In this document: in pieces, positions 3,238-28,089 of the stretch
How the letters are laid out: each line of letters begins with the position of its first letter
How positions within the stretch are numbered: the stretch's first letter is position 1
Origin: Flammeovirgaceae bacterium BBD 1991-12
Lineage (GTDB): Bacteria; Bacteroidota; Bacteroidia; Cytophagales; Cyclobacteriaceae
Direction: 5' to 3'
NCBI GenBank assembly: GCA_001657315.1
Contig: LYSV01000011.1
Location: 1 to 64,000 of the forward strand
Length of the DNA: 64,000 nt
Notes under the pieces: model-generated
Seen by the model: the letters and a program-made list of their open reading frames with translations, nothing else
Databases searched by the model: none
What the model was told of the DNA's origin: nothing
Made by a program: the position numbers and the translations under genes

Positions 3238-5712
3238 ATGAAGACATATTCAATACTTCTGACGCTCACATTGTGCCTTTCTTTTTCGGTCGGCTGGACG
3301 CAAAAGAAGAAAAAAGGCAAAAAGGATCCGGAGCCTACGGAGGAGACTAAGAAAAAAAAGAACGGGAATAATAATGGTATCAAGCCCTATAAGGAAGTGA
3401 TCACCGACAGGGCGGTTTCAGACACCGGGCTTTTCACGGTACACAAGGTAGACGATAAATACTATTTTGAGATCGCAGACTCACTCATAGACCGGGAGAT
3501 ATTGGTGGTGAGCCGTATTTCCGGAACTATTGACGGCTTTAACTTTGGTGGAGCCGGTATGAAGGCGCGGGGACAGCAGGTATGGCGGTGGCAGAAGAAA
3601 GATAATCAGTTGCTGCTGCGGTCCGTTTCCCACAACAGTGTGGCCAACGAGGAAAAGCCCATCTACGAGTCCGTGCGCAACAACAACTTCGAGCCGGTGA
3701 TCATGGTGTTTAACCTGAAGGCGTTTGGAAAGGATTCGGCATCCTATGTGATTGAGATAAATGAATTGTTCACTACGGATATCCCCATGATCGGGCCGCT
3801 GCGCCAGAGCCAGCGCAAGGACTTTCAGGTGAAGGGGCTGGACAAGAAGCGCAGCCTCATCATGTGGTCGAAGAGCTTTCCGCTAAATACGGAGGTGCGC
3901 CATGTCCTCACCTACAACGCCTCAAAGCTGCCTTCCAATCAAAATACAGGCACACTTTCCATAGAAATGAACCAATCCATGGTGCTGCTGCCTAAAGTAC
4001 CGATGACGCCCCGGCTGTATGACCGCAGGGTGGGCTTCTTCAGCGTATCGCAGATCGACTACGGCATGGACGAGCAGAAGGCCACCACACGTCGCTTTAT
4101 TACCCGCTGGCGGCTGGAGCCCAAGGATATGGAGGCTTTCAAAAGAGGTGAGCTGGTGGAACCGGTGAAACCCATTGTATACTACATCGATCCGGCCACC
4201 CCGGTAAAATGGAGGAAATACATCAAGCAGGGAGTAGAAGACTGGAATGTCGCCTTTGCCGAAGCAGGTTTCAAAAATGCTATAATGGCCAAGGACCCTC
4301 CCAGCAAGGAAGAGGACCCGGACTGGAGCCCGGAGGATGTCCGCTATTCGGTGATCCGCTACACGGCGAACCCTATTCAGAATGCTCAGGGGCCGCATGT
4401 ACATGACCCCCGGTCCGGAGAGATCATAGAAAGTGATATCATCTGGTATCATAATGTGATGAACCTGCTGCGCAACTGGTTTTTTGTGCAAACGGCGGCG
4501 GCGAACGAAGATGCCCGGGGTGTTAAGTTTGACGATGATGTTATGGGCCGGCTGATCCGGTTTGTGTCTGCGCATGAAGTGGGGCATACGCTGGGTTTCC
4601 CGCACAATATGGGCGCCAGCTACTCCTATCCTGTCGACTCACTGCGGTCGCAGGGCTTTACGCAAAGAATGGGTACGGCGCCTTCCATTATGGATTATGC
4701 GCGATTTAACTACGTAGCACAGCCGGGCGACGGAGCAGCATTATATCCGGACATCGGCGAGTACGACAAATGGGCCGTGAAGTGGGGTTACACCCCTCTC
4801 CCGGATGCACAAAGCGCCGATGATGAAAAGGAAACACTACACCAGTGGGTAAAAGAACGCGCGGACAATTCTATGTATTGGTATGGACGGCAGGCATTCA
4901 ATCCCATAGACCCGCGGGCTCAAACGGAGGACCTGGGCAATGACGCCATGAAGGCCAGCGACTATGGTATCGCCAACCTGAAGAGGATTATCCCCAGCCT
5001 GGTATCCTGGACCAATGAAAATGGTAAGGATTATGATGACCTGCGTGAGCTGTATGGGCAGGTGCTGGGACAGTGGAACCGGTACAACGGCCACGTAAAG
5101 TCCAATATCGGCGGCCTGTATGAAACACATAAAACCTACGACCAGCAGGGCACAGTGTATGCATATGTACCCAAAGCCACACAGCAGAGGGCCATGAACT
5201 GGATGCTGAAAGAAACCTTCTCCACCCCTACCTGGATGCTGAACGAGAATGTACTGAACCGTATCGAGGGGGCCGGCACTGTGGAGCGTATCCGGCAGCT
5301 ACAGGTGCGTGCACTTAATCAGGTACTGGACGAGGGCCGGCTGGCCCGGTTGATCGAAGCGGAGGCTAAACTGGGTAACGCTACCTACACACCCATCGAA
5401 ATGATGCAGGATCTGCGTAACGGCCTTTGGTCCGAGCTCAGCAGGGGCCGCAGGATCGACACGTACAGGAGAAATCTTCAGCGTGCCTATATCGAGCGTC
5501 TGCACTATTTCATGACTGAAGAGCAGAAGAACTCTTTTGGCAACACCCGGGTAGACGTAAGTCAGTCGGATATCCGCCCACTGGTGAGGGCCGAGCTCAA
5601 AGCGCTGCAACGGCAGATAAGGGCAGCGGTAGGTAGGACATCTGACCGTATGACGCGCTATCATCTGGAGGATGCTTTGGAAAGGATTGATCTTATTCTT
5701 GACCCTAAATAG
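3238..5712 (+). CDS. Zinc-dependent metalloprotease with DUF5117/DUF4953 domains
   Basis: An 824-residue protein with a signal peptide ending near SVGWTQ, then a Lys-rich linker (residues 22-50). The middle matches the DUF5117/DUF5118 region of Bacteroidetes metalloproteases. The catalytic domain has HEVGHTLGFPH with zinc ligands His446, His450 and His456 and catalytic Glu447, plus the downstream PSIMDYARFNYV turn containing the Met of a metzincin-like Met-turn. The C-terminal helical part (about 630-824) is typical of DUF4953. It is probably exported to the periplasm or cell surface; substrate unknown. It lacks a T9SS sorting domain. Length is normal for the family. Confidence 0.92.
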   Translation: MKTYSILLTLTLCLSFSVGWTQKKKKGKKDPEPTEETKKKKNGNNNGIKPYKEVITDRAVSDTGLFTVHKVDDKYYFEIADSLIDREILVVSRISGTIDGFNFGGAGMKARGQQVWRWQKKDNQLLLRSVSHNSVANEEKPIYESVRNNNFEPVIMVFNLKAFGKDSASYVIEINELFTTDIPMIGPLRQSQRKDFQVKGLDKKRSLIMWSKSFPLNTEVRHVLTYNASKLPSNQNTGTLSIEMNQSMVLLPKVPMTPRLYDRRVGFFSVSQIDYGMDEQKATTRRFITRWRLEPKDMEAFKRGELVEPVKPIVYYIDPATPVKWRKYIKQGVEDWNVAFAEAGFKNAIMAKDPPSKEEDPDWSPEDVRYSVIRYTANPIQNAQGPHVHDPRSGEIIESDIIWYHNVMNLLRNWFFVQTAAANEDARGVKFDDDVMGRLIRFVSAHEVGHTLGFPHNMGASYSYPVDSLRSQGFTQRMGTAPSIMDYARFNYVAQPGDGAALYPDIGEYDKWAVKWGYTPLPDAQSADDEKETLHQWVKERADNSMYWYGRQAFNPIDPRAQTEDLGNDAMKASDYGIANLKRIIPSLVSWTNENGKDYDDLRELYGQVLGQWNRYNGHVKSNIGGLYETHKTYDQQGTVYAYVPKATQQRAMNWMLKETFSTPTWMLNENVLNRIEGAGTVERIRQLQVRALNQVLDEGRLARLIEAEAKLGNATYTPIEMMQDLRNGLWSELSRGRRIDTYRRNLQRAYIERLHYFMTEEQKNSFGNTRVDVSQSDIRPLVRAELKALQRQIRAAVGRTSDRMTRYHLEDALERIDLILDPK

Positions 5713-6008: not shown

Positions 6009-6813
6009 ATGTTCGCCAGGATTTTGTATCTGTCACTGATTTTTGTGGGTGTACACCATACCTCACCTGCACAGATTTTCCCGCTTCGGAATGCCCATGC
6101 GCACAATGATTATGAGCACAAACGCCCGCTTATGGACGCCCTGAAGTTTGGATTTACGATAGTGGAGGCCGATGTATATGCCGTGGATAACGAGCTGTAT
6201 GTCTATCATGATCTTCCCGCAACTATAGACAAAAAACGTACCCTGGAGAATGTGTATCTCGCTCTGCTGGCCAGCCATATCGAACGCAACGACGGACAGG
6301 TATATCCTGGTGACAATGGCCCCTTTTTCCTCATGGTAGATTTTAAAAGTGCCGCTAAGCCTACGTACAGGGTACTCGAACGCTACCTGCAAAAATACAA
6401 GCATATCTTTGCCAGCACGTCCGCTGAAGGTGATACAGGTCCCGTGCATGTATTTATTTCAGGGAACCGGCCGATCGATAGGGTACTGGCTGGTAACAGC
6501 GAATTCGCCGCTTTGGACGGACGCCCTGCTAACCTTGGGAAAAGTATTTCTCCGGCTCTTATGCCCATCATCAGTGATCATTATAAAAGACATGCTCGCT
6601 GGGACGGTACCGGGGAAATGCCGGCCAGGGATAAAGAGGCTATCTCCCACCTGGCAGAACGCGTGCATAAGGAGGGGAAAAAAACTGAGGCTATGGGCGA
6701 TACCTGATACGCCGGCAGCTTGGGAAGCCCTGCTCTCACTGGGTGTGGACTATATTAATACAGACCGGTTGCAGGCATACCACGAGTTCATGCAGCAACG
6801 GAGCTCTGAATAA
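6009..6813 (+). pseudogene. Glycerophosphodiester phosphodiesterase / PI-PLC-like protein, frameshifted
   Basis: The first frame (6009-6707) encodes a signal peptide and NAHAHNDYEHKRPLMDAL, then EADVYAVDNELYVYHD, matching the HNDY and E-D metal-binding motifs of secreted GDPD/PI-PLC-like proteins. It ends prematurely after KEGKKTEAMGDT. The family-like C-terminus (LRLWAIPDTPAAWEALLSLG, then VDYINTDRL) lies in the +1 frame and ends at 6813. The frames join at a run of seven A at 6678-6684; six would restore one protein of about 267 residues, the usual length. This could be an indel mutation, a sequencing error, or slippage on the A-run. Confidence 0.8.
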
Positions 6814-6904
6814 TGTGATGCTGTAGAGAACTACCGGGTGAGTGCTGGTTTTGCAAAGGGGAGTTTTCCGTACTGATCACGGTGAGCGTTGGATACCCGC
6901 ATTA

Positions 6905-6962
6905 CAAATGCTGGCGTCAATGCCCTGTAGTACTCAAAGGGTCCGCGTTGCAAACACGGACC
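6905..6962. repeat. Pair of REP-like hairpins with TTRCAAA cores
   Basis: Two small imperfect palindromes lie close together: GCATT-ACA-AATGC near 6909-6921, and GGTCCGCGTT-GCA-AACACGGACC at 6940-6962. They share the same centre (TTRCAAA), suggesting two related repeat units. They lie in the 235-base gap downstream of the broken phosphodiesterase and the convergent LytTR gene. No transposase is nearby. Confidence 0.5.
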
Positions 6963-7048
6963 AGTTTAAAGCTGGATAAGATCGTCTTATTTATCTGATA
7001 GAGTCCAAATGTTTTTTACACTAAGCTGGATACCTCCCTTGACCTAAA

Positions 7049-7801
7049 CTACCTGAAAAGAGCATGGTCATGGATATACCTGTTCAGTTCTTCTTCGTAG
7101 TTTTTACCTATTTTCAGCTCGCTTCCTGCCACCCATATATTTTTCAGGTGCAGGTTTTCAATGTAATCAACGTTAATGATATAGGATTTATGTATTCTGA
7201 TGAAGCGGCCTTTGGGCAGGACGTCGGCCAGTCTTTTTAGCGACAGCAACGTCAGGATACTGCGTTGATCCTCGAAATGAATCTTAACGTACTCCTGGTA
7301 ACCTTCTATGAAACATATCTTGTCCAGCCGTATACGGTGGATTTTGTAGTCTGATTTCACGAACAAAATGCCCTTGTTCAACGCCCTTTGTGTAGCCTCA
7401 CTGATATTTTGACTTTCATTTTTGTATTTCAGGGTCTTCATTTCCACCAGACCCCTGGCCTTTTCAGCCGCCTGTCTGAACCGTTCAAATTCTATTGGTT
7501 TGAGCAGATAATCCACAGCATTGAGCGCATAGCTTTCCAGCGCATGGTCAGAATAGGCAGTGGTGAAGATCACTTCTGTTTTATAGGTGCGTATGGTCCT
7601 GGAAAACTGCAGCCCACTTACCTGTGGCAAATTAATGTCCAGCAGGATAAGGTCTATTTCATCCAGGTCATTCTCCTCAAAGCAGTCGAGACAGTTGCTG
7701 TATTGCCCGGCCAGGGTCATGAACGGGAGCTGGTCAATATAATGTGTGAGTATATTCCTGGCATGTACTTCATCATCTACTACCAATGTCCGTAAAGTCA
7801 T
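7049..7801 (-). CDS. LytTR-family response regulator
   Basis: A 250-residue DNA-binding response regulator. The receiver domain occupies about residues 1-120, with acidic residues VVDDE near position 8-12, phospho-acceptor Asp55 in LILLDINLPQVSG, the TTAYSDHALESYALNAVDYLLKP segment and its Lys. The LytTR domain follows (about 145-245) with FVKSDYKIHRI, YVKIHFEDQR and FIRIHKSYIINVDYI. It starts 10 bases after the stop of the large sensor kinase, so the two form a cotranscribed pair. Target promoters are unknown; the TonB receptor gene beyond the kinase is a candidate. Confidence 0.95.
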   Translation of the reverse strand: MTLRTLVVDDEVHARNILTHYIDQLPFMTLAGQYSNCLDCFEENDLDEIDLILLDINLPQVSGLQFSRTIRTYKTEVIFTTAYSDHALESYALNAVDYLLKPIEFERFRQAAEKARGLVEMKTLKYKNESQNISEATQRALNKGILFVKSDYKIHRIRLDKICFIEGYQEYVKIHFEDQRSILTLLSLKRLADVLPKGRFIRIHKSYIINVDYIENLHLKNIWVAGSELKIGKNYEEELNRYIHDHALFR

Positions 7802-17816: not shown

Positions 17817-18320
17817 ATGTCAAAATATAAAATAAAATCACAGGTTGTAACCAAGGCAAATGAGGAGCTGAAAATTTATGCGAAAGAATTTGCACGTGCC
17901 AGGGATATAAAACCAAAAGACATCAATTACCAGGTTTTTTTGCAGGACAAGCTATTGGTAGCTCATGCCGTTAAAAAAGGTGTAACCAGTGTATTGTTTG
18001 AGGAAATTAAAAAAAATTCGCCTTTTGACGATCGACAATGGTCGGATTTCCTCAATATCAATGTACGGACTTTACAAAGATACAAGAAGGCACAGGATCA
18101 TGTATTCAAGCCTATACAAAGTGAAAAAATATTTGAACTGGCAGAAGTTATCAATATGGGATATGAAGTATTTGATTCTTCTGAAAACTTCAACATTTGG
18201 TTAAATAGTCCGTCTACAGCGCTGGGTAATGAAAAGCCTGTTAATCTGCTTGACACATCATACGGTAAAGATCTGGTCCTTGCGGAATTAAACAGAATAG
18301 AATACGGCATATTTGTTTAA
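17817..18320 (+). CDS. Xre/MbcA/ParS-type antitoxin of a RES toxin
   Basis: A 167-residue protein with an N-terminal HTH-like part (about 40-100, LNINVRTLQRYKK) and a C-terminal toxin-binding region: IFELAEVINMGYEVFDSSEN, FNIWLNSPSTALGNEKPVNL, LDTSYGKDLVLAELNRIEYG. The last matches the DUF2384/MbcA-ParS pattern. It neutralises the RES toxin encoded next and probably represses the operon through the palindrome at 17782-17799. The last base of its stop codon is the first base of the toxin ATG. AT-rich composition here suggests horizontal acquisition. Confidence 0.9.
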   Translation: MSKYKIKSQVVTKANEELKIYAKEFARARDIKPKDINYQVFLQDKLLVAHAVKKGVTSVLFEEIKKNSPFDDRQWSDFLNINVRTLQRYKKAQDHVFKPIQSEKIFELAEVINMGYEVFDSSENFNIWLNSPSTALGNEKPVNLLDTSYGKDLVLAELNRIEYGIFV

Positions 18321-18778
18321 TGAAAGTATTCCGCCTAAGCAGGGAAAAGTACAGGAATGAACTATCCGGCTACGGAGCTTCTCTAAACGGTCAGAGGTGG
18401 AATTCCAAAGGAACTGAAGTAATTTACACTGCTGAATCCCGGGCCCTGGCAACCAGTGAGGTAGCTGTTCATATACCGATCGGAATTTTACCAAAAGACT
18501 ACTTTATGGTTGAAATTGAAATTCCATCCACAGTAAAGATCAGGGAACTTTCCACTACAGATCTACCGGATGGGTGGGATTCCATACCAAATCATCCGGG
18601 TAGTCAATATGTCGGGGATAAATTTGTTCTTGAAAATGAGTTTGCAGTGTTAAAAGTACCAAGTGTTGTAGTGAAAGGAGATTACAATTTTGTTATCAAT
18701 CCAAAGCATTCTGACTTTAAAAAAATTAAGATAACCGGAACATATCCTTTCCCATTCGACAAAAGGCTTTTCAGATAA
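18320..18778 (+). CDS. RES-domain toxin (NAD+-degrading)
   Basis: A 152-residue protein with the RES signatures: Arg in KVFRLSREKY, the G-x-RWNSKGTEVIYTAES block with its Tyr, and the Ser-Glu of ALATSEVAVH. RES toxins degrade NAD+ by an ADP-ribosyltransferase-like fold. Length is typical. It overlaps the antitoxin gene by one base, giving tight coupling. Activity in this strain is inferred from conserved residues only. Confidence 0.92.
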   Translation: MKVFRLSREKYRNELSGYGASLNGQRWNSKGTEVIYTAESRALATSEVAVHIPIGILPKDYFMVEIEIPSTVKIRELSTTDLPDGWDSIPNHPGSQYVGDKFVLENEFAVLKVPSVVVKGDYNFVINPKHSDFKKIKITGTYPFPFDKRLFR

Positions 18779-19436: not shown

Positions 19437-20132
19437 TCACAGTGTTTTGATCCGCTGCATAAGCGTGTTTTTATAGCTGTCGCTTATGGGTATGATCTTA
19501 TCGGCGATCTGCAGGTTCGTGTGGTCTATGTTGTCTATTTTGCTGAGATTCACTACATAGGACCGGTGTACCCGCAGAAAGCGATCGGGCGGCAGTTTAT
19601 CAGCTACGGATTTAAGTGTGGAATAAACAGTGTATACCTTTTCGGCGGTGTGGATCTTCACATAATCTCCGTAGGCCTCACACCACCTGATCCCGTTCAG
19701 ATCAAGGTTGACCAACAGGGAATCTACCTTGATGAAAATGTTGGTCAGCGAGCTGTCCTGTGCTGTGGTGCCGATATTGGATTTTGCACGAAGTACAGCT
19801 TTCAGGAACCTGCTGTAGTCATTGACGGGTTTCAACAGGAAATCACACACTTCAAAGTCAAATGCGTCCAGGGCATATTGTTTTTTGCCACTCACAATAA
19901 TTATTTCTGGTTTATGCTGCAATGATTCCATGAGTTTCAGCCCTGACAGGGTAGGCATTTCCACATCCAGAAAGACCATGTGTGTATTTCCCTGGTTAAT
20001 GTATTCGATAGCCTCCACGGGATCATTAAATGCTTCCTGCAGCTCAAGGAAATTGGTGCGTTCTATCAACTGCCGCAGGATCTCAATAGAGACCGGATCA
20101 TCATCAACTACCACACAACGAATGTTATCCAT
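19437..20132 (-). CDS. LytTR response regulator of the GTPase operon
   Basis: A 231-residue response regulator from the ATG at 20132. The receiver has VVVDDDPVSIEIL, phospho-acceptor Asp56 in MVFLDVEMPTLSG and a VCDFLLKPV lysine segment; the LytTR DNA-binding domain (about 130-228) has IFIKVDSLLVNL, DYVKIHTAEKVYTVY and RFLRVHRSYVVNLSKI. The chosen ATG overlaps the kinase stop by eight bases; an in-frame TTG at 20153 is less likely. It is the last gene of the six-gene operon and the presumed output of the hybrid kinase upstream. Confidence 0.93.
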   Translation of the reverse strand: MDNIRCVVVDDDPVSIEILRQLIERTNFLELQEAFNDPVEAIEYINQGNTHMVFLDVEMPTLSGLKLMESLQHKPEIIIVSGKKQYALDAFDFEVCDFLLKPVNDYSRFLKAVLRAKSNIGTTAQDSSLTNIFIKVDSLLVNLDLNGIRWCEAYGDYVKIHTAEKVYTVYSTLKSVADKLPPDRFLRVHRSYVVNLSKIDNIDHTNLQIADKIIPISDSYKNTLMQRIKTL

Positions 20133-22020
20133 GATCTGTTTTGATTTGTTCAACTACTGTTTTCGAATGAGCATGCAGGTTTTTCAACCGGTCTTTCAGG
20201 TTTATATGTGTCCCACCACTGATCTCTTTTTCAATAACGGACAGTTCATCGAAGGGCTCCTTCATTCCAACAAAACTAAAATGTGTTTTAAGTTTATGAG
20301 CAAGCCTTTGTAATCCTGAAAACTCGCCTGCATCCAAATGCTCCAGCATCTGCCTGGTGGAGGTGGAAATTTCCGAGCATAACATGTCCAGCATTTCGTG
20401 AAATTTCTCCTGGTCGTTGGCGTAGATCTTTTGCAACTGACTGAGGTCATATCTTTTGTAATGCTCACTACCCAGCAGTTGGTTTATCTTTGCCTTTACC
20501 TTATCGCTTTGCAACGGTTTTTGAATAAACAGGGCATTGGAGTACCGTTGGATCGTTTTTGTTAACGTAGCCTGATGCTCACCACTGACGACCAACACCG
20601 GTTTTGAGGACTTTTGTGCTTCCAGCAGGTCCAAAACAGGCACACAGGTTTCTTCACCCAGATGATAATCCGTAATGATAAGATCATGATCGTGTATTAC
20701 TTCAATCGCCTCCTCCACACTGCTTGCCAGCGAAGTACTGAGCCCTTCTTCTCCAAGGATCTCTTCCAGTATCATGCCATTGATCGGATCATCCTCAACG
20801 ATCAGAACACGCCTTGCCTTTTCCAGTCCCTGGTCATCGCCAGGCTGGTAAGTAATGGCATCATTTTCTTCGTGGAAGTCAAAAGGAAGTACAAATCTGA
20901 AAGTGCTGCCTTTGTTCACCTGGCTTTCAAGATAGATGTCACCTTCCAGGAGCTCCACCAGGTTTTTGGTGATGGAAAGCCCAAGCCCCGTACCTCCGTA
21001 CTTCCTTGTTGTGTCCCTGGTACCCTGTCTGTAAGGCTCAAATATTTCTTCATGCAGGCTCCTGGGTATTCCTTTGCCGGTATCCTCTACCTTAAAGGCT
21101 ATGTATAGCCGGTCATCAATAACGTCTACAAGGTTTACATGCAATTTCACATGTCCCTGACGAGTGAATTTTACAGCATTCCCTACCAGGTTATACAGGA
21201 TCTGTGACAATTTCTGTATGTCACCTTTCAGTTTTTCAGGCAGCTGTCGCTCAATGTGGTATTGCAGGTGAACGTCTTTCTCACCAGCCGTATATTTAAA
21301 AGCGTGGACCACCGCATCGACAAGGGGGATAAGCTCGAAGTCTACGCTTTCCACCTTCAGATTGCCCGATTCAATTTTAGAAATGTCCAGCACATTGCTC
21401 ACCAGGTGGATCAGATGGGAGCTTACACTATGAAGCGCCTTAATATGTTTTTTTATCTGGCTTATGGAATTGCTCCTGCTCAGCACTTCGGTAAGTCCTG
21501 CGATGGCGTTCACAGGGTTCCTTATTTCATGATTGATCTGGGAGAAGAACTGTGCTTTTGCTTTCTGAAGCCGTTCTATCTCCTCATTTTTGAATTTGAG
21601 CAGCTCATTTTCATGCTTTACACGCTCATTTTCCAGGAGCTGCTTTTCGCGGTTTATTTCAGACTCGTTCCGTTCCTGCTGTACCACAGTAAGGTTTTCA
21701 TAGTGGTCCGTAAAGTCGAAGAGCTGACACACCATCATATCAGGAGAGTCAGCAGGCACATCCAGGATCAGGTCGAAATAGTAATCTTTGCCTCCATAGG
21801 GCATGTTCACACAGGAATACACAAGCTGGTCACTCGCAGACAGGGTAGGGAAAACATCCCTGAGCGACTCAAGGAACGGACTTATACTGAAAATGCTCTC
21901 TTCGTTTAAAACGGGGATAAGGGTATCTGAGGAGTATAAAATATTACCAGTATCCCGTGAGAAGAGAACAAGCTGCATCCGCCGGTCCAGGTAATCACTT
22001 TTATACTTTTCTATATTCAT
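20125..22020 (-). CDS. Hybrid histidine kinase with receiver and Hpt domains
   Basis: A 631-residue soluble kinase. An N-terminal PAS-like region (1-110) is followed by a coiled coil (about 112-155). The HisKA domain has FFSQINHEIRNPVNAI with His164; HATPase motifs are LVGNAVKFT, VEDTGKGIP and YGGTGLGLSI. The receiver has RVLIVEDDPINGM and phospho-acceptor Asp451 in LIITDYHLG. A C-terminal Hpt domain carries His575 in AHKLKTHFSFVG. This is a complete His-Asp-His relay, able to feed the Asp of the following LytTR regulator. No membrane segment is present, so input may come from the neighbouring GTPase/Roadblock proteins. It overlaps the GTPase gene by four bases. Confidence 0.95.
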   Translation of the reverse strand: MNIEKYKSDYLDRRMQLVLFSRDTGNILYSSDTLIPVLNEESIFSISPFLESLRDVFPTLSASDQLVYSCVNMPYGGKDYYFDLILDVPADSPDMMVCQLFDFTDHYENLTVVQQERNESEINREKQLLENERVKHENELLKFKNEEIERLQKAKAQFFSQINHEIRNPVNAIAGLTEVLSRSNSISQIKKHIKALHSVSSHLIHLVSNVLDISKIESGNLKVESVDFELIPLVDAVVHAFKYTAGEKDVHLQYHIERQLPEKLKGDIQKLSQILYNLVGNAVKFTRQGHVKLHVNLVDVIDDRLYIAFKVEDTGKGIPRSLHEEIFEPYRQGTRDTTRKYGGTGLGLSITKNLVELLEGDIYLESQVNKGSTFRFVLPFDFHEENDAITYQPGDDQGLEKARRVLIVEDDPINGMILEEILGEEGLSTSLASSVEEAIEVIHDHDLIITDYHLGEETCVPVLDLLEAQKSSKPVLVVSGEHQATLTKTIQRYSNALFIQKPLQSDKVKAKINQLLGSEHYKRYDLSQLQKIYANDQEKFHEMLDMLCSEISTSTRQMLEHLDAGEFSGLQRLAHKLKTHFSFVGMKEPFDELSVIEKEISGGTHINLKDRLKNLHAHSKTVVEQIKTDHG

Positions 22021-22505
22021 TGCAGCATGGCTTTGCCCAGATCATAAAAGGCATTCTCAACGCTGATCCCTGTTTTAGCACTGGAATACAAAATATTGAA
22101 TGAAGATAGTTCACCTTTGAGCGAATCCAGCGAGTTTTCGGTGAGCAAGTCAATTTTGTTGCCTACTAACCGGATGGGGGCGACAGGCAGGGTCTTACGT
22201 ATCTGGTCGATCTCACTGCTGAGATTTTCATAGGTTGAAGGTCGTGTAACATCGAACACGTAAAGAATGCCGTGAGCACCGAGCATATAGCTTTTGTATA
22301 CTCTTTCATTTTTTACTTCTCCGGCAATATCCCAGATAAGCATGGTAAGTTCCACACCATGGATATCCACCACCTTTTTATCCACTTTTACCCCAATGGT
22401 AGTCTGGTACTTCTCGTCGAAGATCTGGTGGATGAAGCGTTTGATCAATGAAGTCTTGCCGACCCCGAAATGTCCCAGCAGGATTATTTTTTTATTTAGA
22501 ATCAT
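22017..22505 (-). CDS. Ras/Rab-like small GTPase
   Basis: A 162-residue single-domain GTPase with all motifs: P-loop GHFGVGKTS (Lys17, Thr18), switch I TTIGVK, switch II WDIAGE (Asp59, Gly62, with Glu63 where Ras has catalytic Gln61), NKID (116-119) and SSAK (141-144). The layout is closer to eukaryotic Rab/Arf-like and MglA-type proteins than to translational or Era/Obg GTPases. There is no C-terminal prenylation Cys. It overlaps the Roadblock-like gene by 14 bases and the kinase by four bases, so coupling is strong. It is probably a molecular switch controlling the kinase. Confidence 0.93.
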   Translation of the reverse strand: MILNKKIILLGHFGVGKTSLIKRFIHQIFDEKYQTTIGVKVDKKVVDIHGVELTMLIWDIAGEVKNERVYKSYMLGAHGILYVFDVTRPSTYENLSSEIDQIRKTLPVAPIRLVGNKIDLLTENSLDSLKGELSSFNILYSSAKTGISVENAFYDLGKAMLQ

Positions 22506-23322
22506 TTAATGCCTGATCGAAATACCTCTGAACGGATTCGCTAAGCTGGGAGTTTTCCTGGTTTTCGCGCTGATCCTGGTTCAGTATTTTAGCTGCAAAA
22601 TCAAGTATGAGGTTATCAAGTCTGTTTTTGAAAGTAGCATTCCACCCTCCGGCCACCGCGGCTACCACGTAAAAACTCCGAAAGGAACGGATGGCGAGCT
22701 TAAAGGTTTCGTACTCAATGTTTTCAAGGTCCTGGTGCTTTTCATAGGCATCTTCGGCAAATGCTTTAATGGCCGTAAGCATGCCGGCCACCATATCATT
22801 GTCTACACTTTTGGACCGGGTATAGCTGCCCACCAGTATGCCAGAGTCTTTTTGCACCACCAGGATCTGCTCCAGTGTAGGCTCCAGCAGGTCTTTGGTG
22901 ATCGTTGCGCTGGGCTTTGCGCCACCAAACCACGCCCGGACACGAGCTATGAGATTTTTCCATGAAAACGCAGCGTCAAGTTGCCTGTCAATACGCTCGG
23001 AGAGCAGCTCAAGCTCTTTGACCACGTATTTTTTTATCATTTTACCGATAATTGGATACAGCGCTTCGATCACTTCTTCACGTGAATCCCTGATCTGATC
23101 GCGAATGGATTGGGTGACCTCTTCTCCAAAGAGCGTTGAGAAATTGCGTTTTATATGAACGACCTGATCATCCAGTATGGGCTGTACCCGTGTTTCCAGT
23201 TGCTCCCTGTCCTCTATTTTTTCATCTGTTAACCGTAGCTGTTGGTTGATAGCCTGCCACTCCTCTTTCTCATCTTCCAGAAGGATCTGCTTGAGTTTAT
23301 GATAGAGAAGTGCTTTTGACAT
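22492..23322 (-). CDS. Roadblock/LC7-like domain protein
   Basis: A 276-residue protein with two parts. The N-terminal 120 residues are charged and helical (EEWQAINQQLRLTDEKIEDR, EEVTQSIRDQIRDSREEV). The C-terminal part (about 145-255) reads EQILVVQKDSGILVGSYTRS, NDMVAGMLTAIKAFAEDAY, SFYVVAAVAGGWN, the pattern of a Roadblock/longin-like alpha-beta fold as in MglB and related GTPase regulators. Adjacent to a Ras-like GTPase, it is probably its activating or docking partner. There is no signal peptide or membrane segment. The domain call rests on pattern resemblance by eye, so a related longin-type domain is possible. Confidence 0.7.
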   Translation of the reverse strand: MSKALLYHKLKQILLEDEKEEWQAINQQLRLTDEKIEDREQLETRVQPILDDQVVHIKRNFSTLFGEEVTQSIRDQIRDSREEVIEALYPIIGKMIKKYVVKELELLSERIDRQLDAAFSWKNLIARVRAWFGGAKPSATITKDLLEPTLEQILVVQKDSGILVGSYTRSKSVDNDMVAGMLTAIKAFAEDAYEKHQDLENIEYETFKLAIRSFRSFYVVAAVAGGWNATFKNRLDNLILDFAAKILNQDQRENQENSQLSESVQRYFDQALNDSK

Positions 23323-23387
23323 ATGACAGGTTTACTTGAAATGGATAAAAATGGTCTGGACCGTGGCTATTTCTTTTTTACCGGCTG

Positions 23388-23708
23388 TTATTTTAATTTT
23401 TCCGCCAGCTCAACGAGTAATGCCGACAGATCCGCTTTGGCCGTGGTGGATGCTGCGAGCTGATCAACGGATTTTGTCAAATCTTTGATAGACGACTCCA
23501 CTTCATTTTTAAGGTTCCTGATCTCAGCCTCAAGCTTCTTGTTGGCCTCGGCCCACATTTTTTCATTACTTTCCTGCAGCGTATTGATATGGTCCTTCAG
23601 TTGCCTGAACTCACTCTCGTACTCCTTGATGTTCTCTCCAAAGATGATCTCCTTGATAGCATCCAGCTTCTTGTCCACTGGAATTTTTTCTTTGCTGTTA
23701 TCACTCAT
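23388..23708 (-). CDS. Small coiled-coil protein
   Basis: A 106-residue highly charged helical protein. Heptad-like hydrophobic spacing runs through EYESEFRQLKDHINTLQESN and KLEAEIRNLKNEVESSIKDL. No signal peptide or membrane segment. It follows the peptidoglycan-binding gene by one base and precedes the Roadblock gene by 65 bases. It may be a scaffold linking the envelope protein to the GTPase module; no sequence family was recognised. Confidence 0.8.
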   Translation of the reverse strand: MSDNSKEKIPVDKKLDAIKEIIFGENIKEYESEFRQLKDHINTLQESNEKMWAEANKKLEAEIRNLKNEVESSIKDLTKSVDQLAASTTAKADLSALLVELAEKLK

Positions 23709-23709
23709 G

Positions 23710-24339
23710 CTACTTCGTCTTTAATACTGTAATGGTTTCTTTATCAGTTATGCCGGAGGGATAAAGGTTGGCATCCCGTTGTAATGATTTAATGGCATTT
23801 TCAGTCTCAGGGCCGAAGGTGCCGTCCAATGGAATGTCATAGCCTTTATCGATCAGGATCTTTTGAATGTCGTACACCTCGTTTGATCTGTCACCGGGTT
23901 TGAGATAAAGGTATCTGGCGTTTTCATGAAAGAAATAGTTGCGAGGGGCCAGTCCTGTTTCTATGATCTTCTGAATGGCGGGGTTATCATACCCCTGTTC
24001 CTTCAGGTCTGCTGAATAGATCAGCAGTTTCTCCATCTTCATGGTGGTAGCTGTAAGATGGGTATAACGTGTTGAGGCTTCCCGGGCTTCCTCCGAATCA
24101 CCGGGATATTGCACATCTATCCCTTTTTGGAACCACATCCTTCTGGCAAATGCGCCCAGCTCATAGCAGTTCCTGTAATACTGATCAAGCAATAACGGGT
24201 CATAATAGTTGGGATCTATACTGTCGCTTGCCGTATATGAGTGATCGAAAGGGGGTCTGTAACGTTGATAATTCTCATATTGAAAATAGGCAATCACTAT
24301 CAGGCTCAGTGATATTATGAGCATTAGCAATCTCTTCAT
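23710..24339 (-). CDS. Membrane-anchored peptidoglycan-binding domain protein
   Basis: A 209-residue protein with an N-terminal membrane helix (LLMLIISLSLIVIAYF), a periplasmic helical region (about 25-140) and a C-terminal PG_binding_1 domain (about 145-207: LYLKPGDRSNEVYDIQKILI, IPLDGTFGPETENAIKSLQR). The anchor lacks a lipobox Cys, so it probably stays in the inner membrane with its wall-binding domain outside. As first gene of the six-gene operon it could sense the cell wall for the GTPase/kinase module; this role is inference. Confidence 0.85.
   Translation of the reverse strand: MKRLLMLIISLSLIVIAYFQYENYQRYRPPFDHSYTASDSIDPNYYDPLLLDQYYRNCYELGAFARRMWFQKGIDVQYPGDSEEAREASTRYTHLTATTMKMEKLLIYSADLKEQGYDNPAIQKIIETGLAPRNYFFHENARYLYLKPGDRSNEVYDIQKILIDKGYDIPLDGTFGPETENAIKSLQRDANLYPSGITDKETITVLKTK

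Positions 24340-25794: not shown

Positions 25795-28089
<2,295 letters not shown>

Follow-up and report, generated by a model that had tools for sequence, protein, structure and literature searches.

A six-gene cluster of a Flammeovirgaceae bacterium matches the predicted Group 1 Rup module, with a most likely longin-domain partner for its GTPase

In gene content and motifs, a six-gene cluster of Flammeovirgaceae bacterium BBD 1991-12 matches a Bacteroidota variant of the predicted Group 1 Rup module. The 276-residue partner of its Rup GTPase is most likely a longin-domain protein and not a Roadblock protein, an assignment that is new here. Positions below refer to the window, the 64,000-nt stretch of contig LYSV01000011.1 that was analysed.

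Layout and conservation of the gene cluster

The ORF check places all six open reading frames on the minus strand within 19437-24339, in the following order: a 209-residue peptidoglycan (PG)-binding protein (23710-24339), a 106-residue coiled-coil protein (23388-23708), the 276-residue longin-like protein (22492-23322), a 162-residue Rup/Rab-like small GTPase (22017-22505), a 631-residue cytosolic hybrid histidine kinase (20125-22020) and a LytTR response regulator (19437-20132 from an ATG start, or 19437-20153 from a TTG start). The coordinates bear out the single-strand order given in a preliminary description of this DNA, together with its overlaps of 14 bases (276-residue protein and GTPase genes), 4 bases (GTPase and kinase genes) and, given the ATG start of the regulator, 8 bases (kinase and regulator genes). 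The remaining intergenic gaps measure 1 base between the PG-binding and coiled-coil genes and 65 bases between the coiled-coil and 276-residue protein genes. Wall binding and a phosphorelay are joined in one coupled gene set with a Ras/Rab-like GTPase and a partner from the roadblock/longin superfold, as had been proposed.

The PG-binding protein matches Pfam PG_binding_1 (4.5e-14; about 23722-23889) and has a hydrophobic N-terminus. It alone has a strongly hydrophobic stretch (19 residues with a mean hydropathy of 2.02, the other five proteins reaching at most 1.19) and is probably a single-TM, periplasmic protein. The best 25 of 72 matches of the coiled-coil protein are weak, fall short of cut-off and point mostly to coiled-coil families. 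The GTPase matches Pfam Ras (1.4e-34), and its best solved relative is Rab14 (3.2e-25). Its G3 motif, DIAGE, lacks the catalytic Gln, which is absent from 29 of the 31 aligned GTPases including that of the window and kept in the other two.

Group 1 Rup systems, as portrayed in the consulted parts of Wuichet and Sogaard-Andersen (2015, PMC4316618), comprise a coiled coil, a conserved-domain protein often fused to OmpA, a Rup GTPase and an output enzyme whose N-terminal part carries an invariant Gln, histidine kinases being among the outputs. By 2015, according to the same parts, none of the Rup proteins had been studied experimentally, and the conserved-domain partner was left unassigned. The window shares with these systems a Ras-superfamily GTPase shorter than 240 residues that is not coupled to MglB and has no Gln in G3, a nearby coiled coil and conserved-domain protein with OmpA-fused homologues, and an output module with an N-terminal Gln, which comes from our own alignment and may differ from the Gln in the published logo. 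It departs from that account in its separate PG_binding_1 protein, which replaces the OmpA fusion, and in the added LytTR regulator; this arrangement, found in the window and some relatives, is new here. The preliminary view of an undescribed system therefore does not hold, since the Group 1 module, histidine-kinase outputs included, had been predicted in 2015. What goes beyond the description, in the parts consulted, is the assignment of the conserved domain to the longins and of the output N-terminal domain to a PAS-like fold, along with phosphatase, stand-alone PAS and adenylate cyclase outputs in relatives.

The core order is kept in relatives, as the preliminary description would predict. 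In 31 of 33 loci, the window counted in, the gene after the homologue of the 276-residue protein is the GTPase gene (of the 31 GTPase matches, 10 are to sequences already in the profile used), so the cluster reflects more than chance. Among the 22 loci found via the longin protein, the GTPase gene comes next in 20; among 12 further loci outside the class, it comes next in 5, lies divergently nearby in 4 and was not found in 3 within the stretch of DNA examined. A coiled-coil-like gene lies upstream of the longin gene in 21/33 loci. Only 9/33 loci, the window among them, carry an upstream PG-binding homologue and only 7/33 a LytTR gene among the following genes, and the input and output of the module therefore vary. 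A kinase domain is encoded downstream in 17/33 loci, a cyclase at L021 and L022, and a SpoIIE-type phosphatase with a PAS-like domain at L051, while some loci close with a lone PAS-like protein that lacks an enzyme part. Nostoc, Mesorhizobium and Rhizobium have the same gene layout, but with a longin protein that is fused to OmpA, and the 276-residue protein is homologous to these fusions.

Fold of the 276-residue partner

The longin reading is based on a structural search that favours longins and on the distribution of profile matches in blind searches. In the AlphaFold2 (AF2) model, residues 1-146 form a helical N-terminal region, and residues 147-276 (about 22495-22884, minus strand) form a longin-like domain, also recognised by Foldseek. 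Secondary-structure elements in residues 149-274 follow the order b-b-a-b-b-b-a-a, as in longins, a correspondence of order only that leaves aside the packing of the last helix. The model is of moderate confidence (mean pLDDT 58.5; 52-82 in 10-residue blocks over residues 151-276). Its top Foldseek matches are clathrin-adaptor chains and Mon1-Ccz1 (4p6z_S, 1.8e-4; AP2 core 2vgl_S, 2.6e-4; Mon1-Ccz1 entry 5ldd, 2.6e-4), placing the protein within the roadblock/longin superfold, as claimed earlier. Roadblock entries rank lower (3l7h, 2.2e-3, rank 16; a chain of the MglA-MglB entry 6izw, 6.5e-3, rank 50), with a gap of only about tenfold in E.

Blind profile searches covered 32 genomes (a first set of 21 and a further set of 11) at E<=10. 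Inside the gene for the 276-residue homologue fell 5 of 20 matches to the FUZ/MON1-longin profile, all below curated cut-offs, and 0 of 22 matches to Robl_LC7; these genes are mutually homologous, so the matches are not independent trials. PF19036 gave 19 matches in the 21 genomes, 4 of them in the gene (G013, G237, G385 and G023) and the best (G208:C45, 0.026) outside it, and a single match, in the gene, in the further 11. PF19031, searched in the 21-genome set only, gave 9 matches with 2 in the gene (G385 and G141). Neither profile matched in the window's own genome at E<=10, and the window's protein has no Pfam longin match. The curated longin cut-off was passed in 0/21 and 0/11 genomes, the best score in any scan, that of the L052 protein, being 19.5 bits versus 26.1, and sub-threshold longin matches occurred in 3/14 and 2/14 control genomes.

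Robl_LC7 has no match in the 276-residue protein at E<=1 and none in its genome at E<=0.001; at E<=10 the genome contains four sub-threshold matches, all outside the gene. On these negatives and the 32-genome result a Roadblock identity was rejected; the earlier label "Roadblock-like" lacks support in the sequence and gives way to the longin assignment that the fold search favours. The profile check called for at the outset thus turned against Roadblock and spoke for longin only through sub-threshold matches in relatives.

When 32 longin proteins were scanned against Pfam, Fuz_longin_1 ranked first by members (6/32, best E 0.0012) and Intu_longin_1 third (4/32, 0.014) among the 25 of 102 families listed, but the scan proves little by itself because DUF6120 (5/32, 0.00072) and isolated matches such as that to Herpes_UL46 (0.00053) score equally well. 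Among ten proteins scanned singly, one (L052) matched both longin families. Among PDB sequences, neither the protein alone nor a 9-row profile retrieved anything useful; a 32-row profile ranked AP-4 sigma, a longin-fold protein, first (E 0.18), closely followed by unrelated proteins.

The wording of the preliminary description suggests an MglA-MglB polarity system, or a conservon-like one with a Roadblock partner; either would account for the shared superfold and for the 6izw and 3l7h entries in the fold search. As in MglA-MglB, a small GTPase adjoins a partner of the same superfold; the window partner, however, is not Roadblock by profile, and its GTPase carries Asp in G3 and has Rabs as best solved relatives, whereas MglA is reported to have Thr in G3 (PMC3000849, as consulted in part). 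Actinobacterial conservons likewise combine a small GTPase, a histidine kinase and a same-superfold partner in one operon, but with an MglB-type Roadblock protein, CvnB, in the portions of PMC13343842 consulted; the 276-residue gene has no Robl match, and the window instead pairs a longin-like partner with a Rab/Rup-like GTPase. We regard this alternative as very improbable.

The longin-like domain resembles the first longin domains of the tri-longin RabGEFs Mon1-Ccz1 and Fuzzy-Inturned in both profile and fold, and its partner GTPase is Rab-like. Those GEFs are described, in the parts of PMC12383261 and PMC7703760 used here, as heterodimers with three longin domains per subunit that need a Y-K/R motif in switch 1 of the substrate (PMC12383261). 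By contrast, the window has a single gene with one longin-like domain, the only copy that its own profile finds in the genome, and a GTPase without Y-K/R. The Tyr occurs in 30/30 GTPases, the Lys in that of L053 only and the Arg in none (L010 lacks the stretch). The missing motif, with Lys in 1/30 GTPases, would suit a scaffold, in which the longin protein, without regulating nucleotide state, tethers the kinase and the GTPase to a coiled coil anchored at the wall, and the GTPase sets the timing of assembly or localisation, in a polarity-like manner, instead of that of kinase activity. Roadblock/longin dimers are described, in the sections of PMC10933270 considered, as platforms in frequent direct contact with small GTPases, for which they serve chiefly as GEFs and occasionally as GAPs, and the loci ending in a PAS-like protein with no enzyme also fit. 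The frequent downstream enzymes (kinase domain, cyclase and phosphatase) suggest instead that an enzymatic output is controlled, and we consider the scaffold rather unlikely.

The hybrid kinase and its PAS-like domain

The kinase comprises, on the minus strand, a PAS-like domain (21661-22020), a HisKA-HATPase module (20881-21561; Pfam HisKA and HATPase_c), a receiver (20485-20808; Response_reg) and an Hpt domain (20128-20397), the last matched weakly (1.2e-4, 22.7 bits, under the cut-off of 24.6). The regulator matches Response_reg (3.4e-19) and LytTR (3.9e-21). All four residues of a His-Asp-His-Asp relay are present: H164, D451 and H575 in the kinase and D63 in the regulator (TTG numbering). 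PADLOC matches in the kinase and receiver parts (best PDC-M43B, 4.9e-8, and PD-T4-6, 2.6e-5) are read as generic and a defence system was rejected; the 276-residue protein had no PADLOC match.

The preliminary description held that the kinase has no membrane or classic sensor domain. The first part agrees with its lack of a strong hydrophobic segment; the second is corrected by the N-terminus, which is modelled as a PAS-like domain (pLDDT 88.3), a feature new here, with PAS domains, several from sensor proteins, as fold matches. After the GTPase gene, 25/33 loci encode a PAS-like domain, on various enzymes or alone, 9 of these 25 matches being members of the profile used, and the profile matches 24 other effectors, 8 of them profile members. 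The domain ends in a conserved Gln, found at position 114 or 115 in 29/29 aligned effectors and at 115 in 25/29. Because relatives of the domain stand alone or sit on a phosphatase, it is probably the docking domain of the GTPase. The N-terminus of the rhizobial cyclase matches the PAS-like profile weakly (score 20.9, against a maximum of 15.8 in 20 column shuffles; probability 5 percent) and aligns with the Nostoc-type profile over only 38 columns, not full length; we treat this as suggestive.

PAS domains often bind ligands, and the sensor proteins among the fold matches would suit a PAS-like domain that senses a ligand of its own, the relay and the GTPase module being merely co-transcribed. 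The recurrence of the domain after the GTPase on different enzymes or alone, and its invariable Gln, argue against such separate signalling, which we judge improbable.

A candidate route from the envelope to transcription

We favour, as reasonably probable, a Group 1 Rup variant in which a signal passes from the wall through the coiled coil and longin protein to the Rup GTPase, and on through the PAS-bearing kinase and a His-Asp-His-Asp relay to the LytTR regulator. The membrane-anchored PG-binding protein and the coiled coil would supply envelope input. The longin protein, probably a homodimer like MglB, may serve as regulator or platform of the GTPase, which by family would be the switch. 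We infer that the GTPase acts directly on the kinase, whose PAS-like N-terminus would read its nucleotide state. The effector Gln may complete the active site of a GTPase that has no Gln of its own, an idea that draws on the consulted parts of PMC4316618, and the effector would therefore double as an off-timer. Phosphate would then move from His164 to Asp451 and His575 and to the LytTR regulator, changing transcription.

With the partner read as a longin protein, the cluster can be put as a concrete biochemical proposal, in which a Rab-like GTPase of bacteria works with a longin regulator and with a PAS effector from which the missing catalytic Gln may come. The reading also touches the origin of the Rab-longin partnership. 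A 2024 paper repeats, in the part consulted, the view that archaea are the source of the roadblock/longin families (PMC10933270). Here, a bacterial operon would have a Rab-type GTPase and a MON1/FUZ-like longin regulator drive phosphorelays and cyclic-nucleotide enzymes. Given the reported strong similarity of Group 1 Rup GTPases to the Rab/Ran/Ras/Rho group of eukaryotes (PMC4316618, in the passages used), Rab switches and their longin controllers might, as a tentative and on balance unlikely proposal, have entered eukaryotes together as a bacterial pair, rather than longins having arisen solely from prokaryotic Roadblock proteins.

Gene content of the operon and its neighbourhood

The six minus-strand open reading frames of the operon (19437-24339) lie at the coordinates and in the order of the preliminary description, and re-measuring reproduces the overlaps of 14, 4 and 8 bases reported there; the remaining intergenic gaps are 1 and 65 bases. 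Pfam matches comprise PG_binding_1 in the first protein, Ras in the GTPase, HisKA, HATPase_c, Response_reg and a weak Hpt in the hybrid kinase, and Response_reg plus LytTR in the regulator. The 106-residue protein gives weak, sub-cut-off Pfam matches, mostly to coiled-coil families among the matches listed, and the best Pfam match of the 276-residue protein (22492-23322, minus strand) reaches only E 0.14. The phospho-acceptors H164, D451 and H575 of the kinase and D63 of the regulator (numbered from its TTG start) are all in place. The genome holds a single copy of the 276-residue family (profile search, E≤10) and of the GTPase (E≤0.01), and no Robl_LC7 match at E≤0.001.

Just downstream of the operon, adjoining plus-strand genes for an Xre/MbcA-type antitoxin and a RES-domain protein (17817-18778) probably form a RES/Xre toxin-antitoxin pair. 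A long minus-strand open reading frame at 25795-28083 resembles catalase-peroxidase (KatG), as judged by eye.

Fold of the 276-residue protein

The AlphaFold2 model of the 276-residue protein has a mean pLDDT of 58.5; across residues 151-276, ten-residue blocks range from 52 to 82, with 7 of the 13 blocks at 73 or more, and the predicted order of elements in the longin-like domain is β-β-α-β-β-β-α-α. Among the best 50 of 818 Foldseek matches to the PDB, the top entries are the clathrin-adaptor chains 4p6z_S (1.8e-4) and 2vgl_S (2.6e-4), which we take to be sigma subunits, and Mon1-Ccz1 (5ldd, 2.6e-4), followed by Fuzzy-Inturned (9rs8, 1.2e-3). Roadblock entries rank lower: 3l7h is at rank 16 (2.2e-3) and chain C of MglA-MglB (6izw) at rank 50 (6.5e-3). 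Because this gap is only about tenfold in E-value, the fold search alone favours longin over Roadblock but falls short of proof. As a control, the PAS-like domain of the kinase run through the same pipeline retrieves PAS-type entries, with no longin or Roadblock title among the best 50 of 769. The helix pattern of the model is consistent with a longin domain, since longin domains, according to the accessible part of PMC10933270, lose the N-terminal helix of Roadblock and gain a C-terminal one: a C-terminal helix is modelled at 258-274 (block 261-270 at pLDDT 82), and ahead of the first strand there is only a helix of low confidence (42-54).

In blind whole-genome searches of 21 genomes, Fuz_longin_1 (FUZ, MON1, HPS1) gives 19 matches, 4 of them inside the longin gene on the right strand, and Intu_longin_1 gives 9, 2 of them in that gene. 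The chance expectation, from gene length over two-strand genome length, is about 0.001 of 19 matches, although the matches are homologous genes and hence not independent trials. Every longin-profile match stays below the curated cut-off, the strongest of the 19 falls outside the longin gene, and the copy in the window scores with neither profile. In 11 further genomes the single Fuz_longin_1 match lies within the longin gene. The Roadblock-like label previously attached to this protein is not borne out: none of 12 Robl_LC7 matches in the first search and none of 10 in the further genomes falls within the gene, and Foldseek places Roadblock entries below longin entries.

Distribution and layout of a Group 1 Rup module

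The operon had been put forward as an undescribed system; the module is in fact already set out as a Group 1 Rup small-GTPase system in the available text of PMC4316618, which states that experimental characterisation of any Rup protein was still lacking. The word "longin" is absent from its main text, and no longin assignment for the 276-residue family appears among the literature matches listed, from a search outside which most subscription papers lie. The term "Rup GTPase" is confined to a single publication in the literature searched. Longin and roadblock domains are tabulated jointly as present in bacteria in the accessible portion of a 2016 review (PMC4917890), and longins are proposed in excerpts of PMC3521125 to derive from prokaryotic Roadblock-type GAP domains.

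Querying genome contigs with the GTPase returned 18 loci, of which 10 (46-87% identity) carry a 276-residue homologue immediately upstream and 8 (27-33%) the GTPase match alone. The spread of the family is wide yet patchy: profile searches find it in 10 of 58 relatives, among them 3 of 15 genomes of the genus (own genome counted), and in 12 and 14 of 395 genomes sampled from the class and the phylum, respectively. Homologues occur in 4 of 72,556 plasmid records (tblastn; Nostoc, Mesorhizobium and two Rhizobium). Three of these plasmid loci were fetched and read. In each, the homologous part forms the N-terminal region of a large OmpA-type protein and a Rab-like GTPase comes next; after it stands a hybrid kinase with Hpt in Nostoc or an adenylate/guanylate cyclase in the rhizobial loci. 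One rhizobial longin-OmpA protein (L021, 7830-10895) shows, by eye, about four similar tandem repeats between the membrane segment and the OmpA part.

Across 33 loci, window included, the longin gene is followed by the GTPase in 31 and the GTPase by a PAS-like effector in 25, counts to which the profile members themselves contribute 10 and 9. A coiled coil precedes the longin gene in 21 loci and a PG-binding gene in 9. The genes that come next include a kinase domain in 17 loci and LytTR in 7 (slightly further downstream also in L005, L061 and L063), and in 4 loci an OmpA part that BLAST can detect is fused to the longin protein. All six parts stand in order in 4 of the 33 loci; besides the window these are L001 (Fulvivirga sp. 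M361), L006 (Agaribacillus aureus) and L048. The PG-binding and kinase genes of L005 are each broken into two open reading frames, with an extra gene ahead of LytTR. For the loci found via the GTPase (L001-L010) the longin gene is the test, and it is present in 10/10; for the 22 found via the longin protein the test is the GTPase, present in 20 (exceptions L058 and L062). The L010 GTPase lacks an open frame before about residue 55. Outside the class, 12 more loci (11 genomes) have the GTPase next in 5 cases and divergent nearby in 4; the other 3, all from one genus, have none at E≤0.001 within the fetched stretch (about 12 kb). The longin-OmpA genes of L086 and L092 are preceded by a small gene (7103-7546 and 4116-4559, respectively) with weak similarity to the longin profile and a match to the coiled-coil reference as well.

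Effector domain, glutamine pattern and putative signalling

The kinase was previously described as lacking a classic sensor domain, a view at odds with the PAS-like fold modelled for its N-terminal residues 1-143 (pLDDT 88.3). Several loci encode a related PAS-like domain as a stand-alone protein of about 125-139 residues, and L051 carries one on a SpoIIE-type phosphatase; profile comparison relates the domain to the Nostoc-type kinase N-terminus (E 8.4e-5, probability 60 percent) and weakly to that of the rhizobial cyclase. In L054 the stand-alone PAS-like gene is followed by a gene for an LpxK-type lipid A kinase (6453-7514), and genes of similar size come next in L055 and L056.

The catalytic glutamine of the GTPase G3 motif is absent in 29 of 31 GTPases, and a glutamine is found at position 114 or 115 in all 29 aligned effectors. 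The L056 and L057 GTPases retain the G3 glutamine (DIAGQ), contrary to the Group 1 rule. PMC4316618, as far as its available text goes, proposed that the glutamine is supplied in trans and also put forward a conservon-like signalling complex.

According to the accessible text of PMC12383261, tri-longin GEFs act on substrates whose switch 1 must carry a Y-K/R motif. Judged from sequence, a mechanism copied from Mon1-Ccz1 is unlikely, because the GTPases keep the tyrosine (30/30) but only one has the lysine. The longin protein may instead work as a GAP, as a platform or as a different type of exchange factor. A putative chain, which would run from the wall through the longin protein, the GTPase and the PAS-kinase to the LytTR regulator, is drawn from gene order, domain identity and the glutamine pattern.
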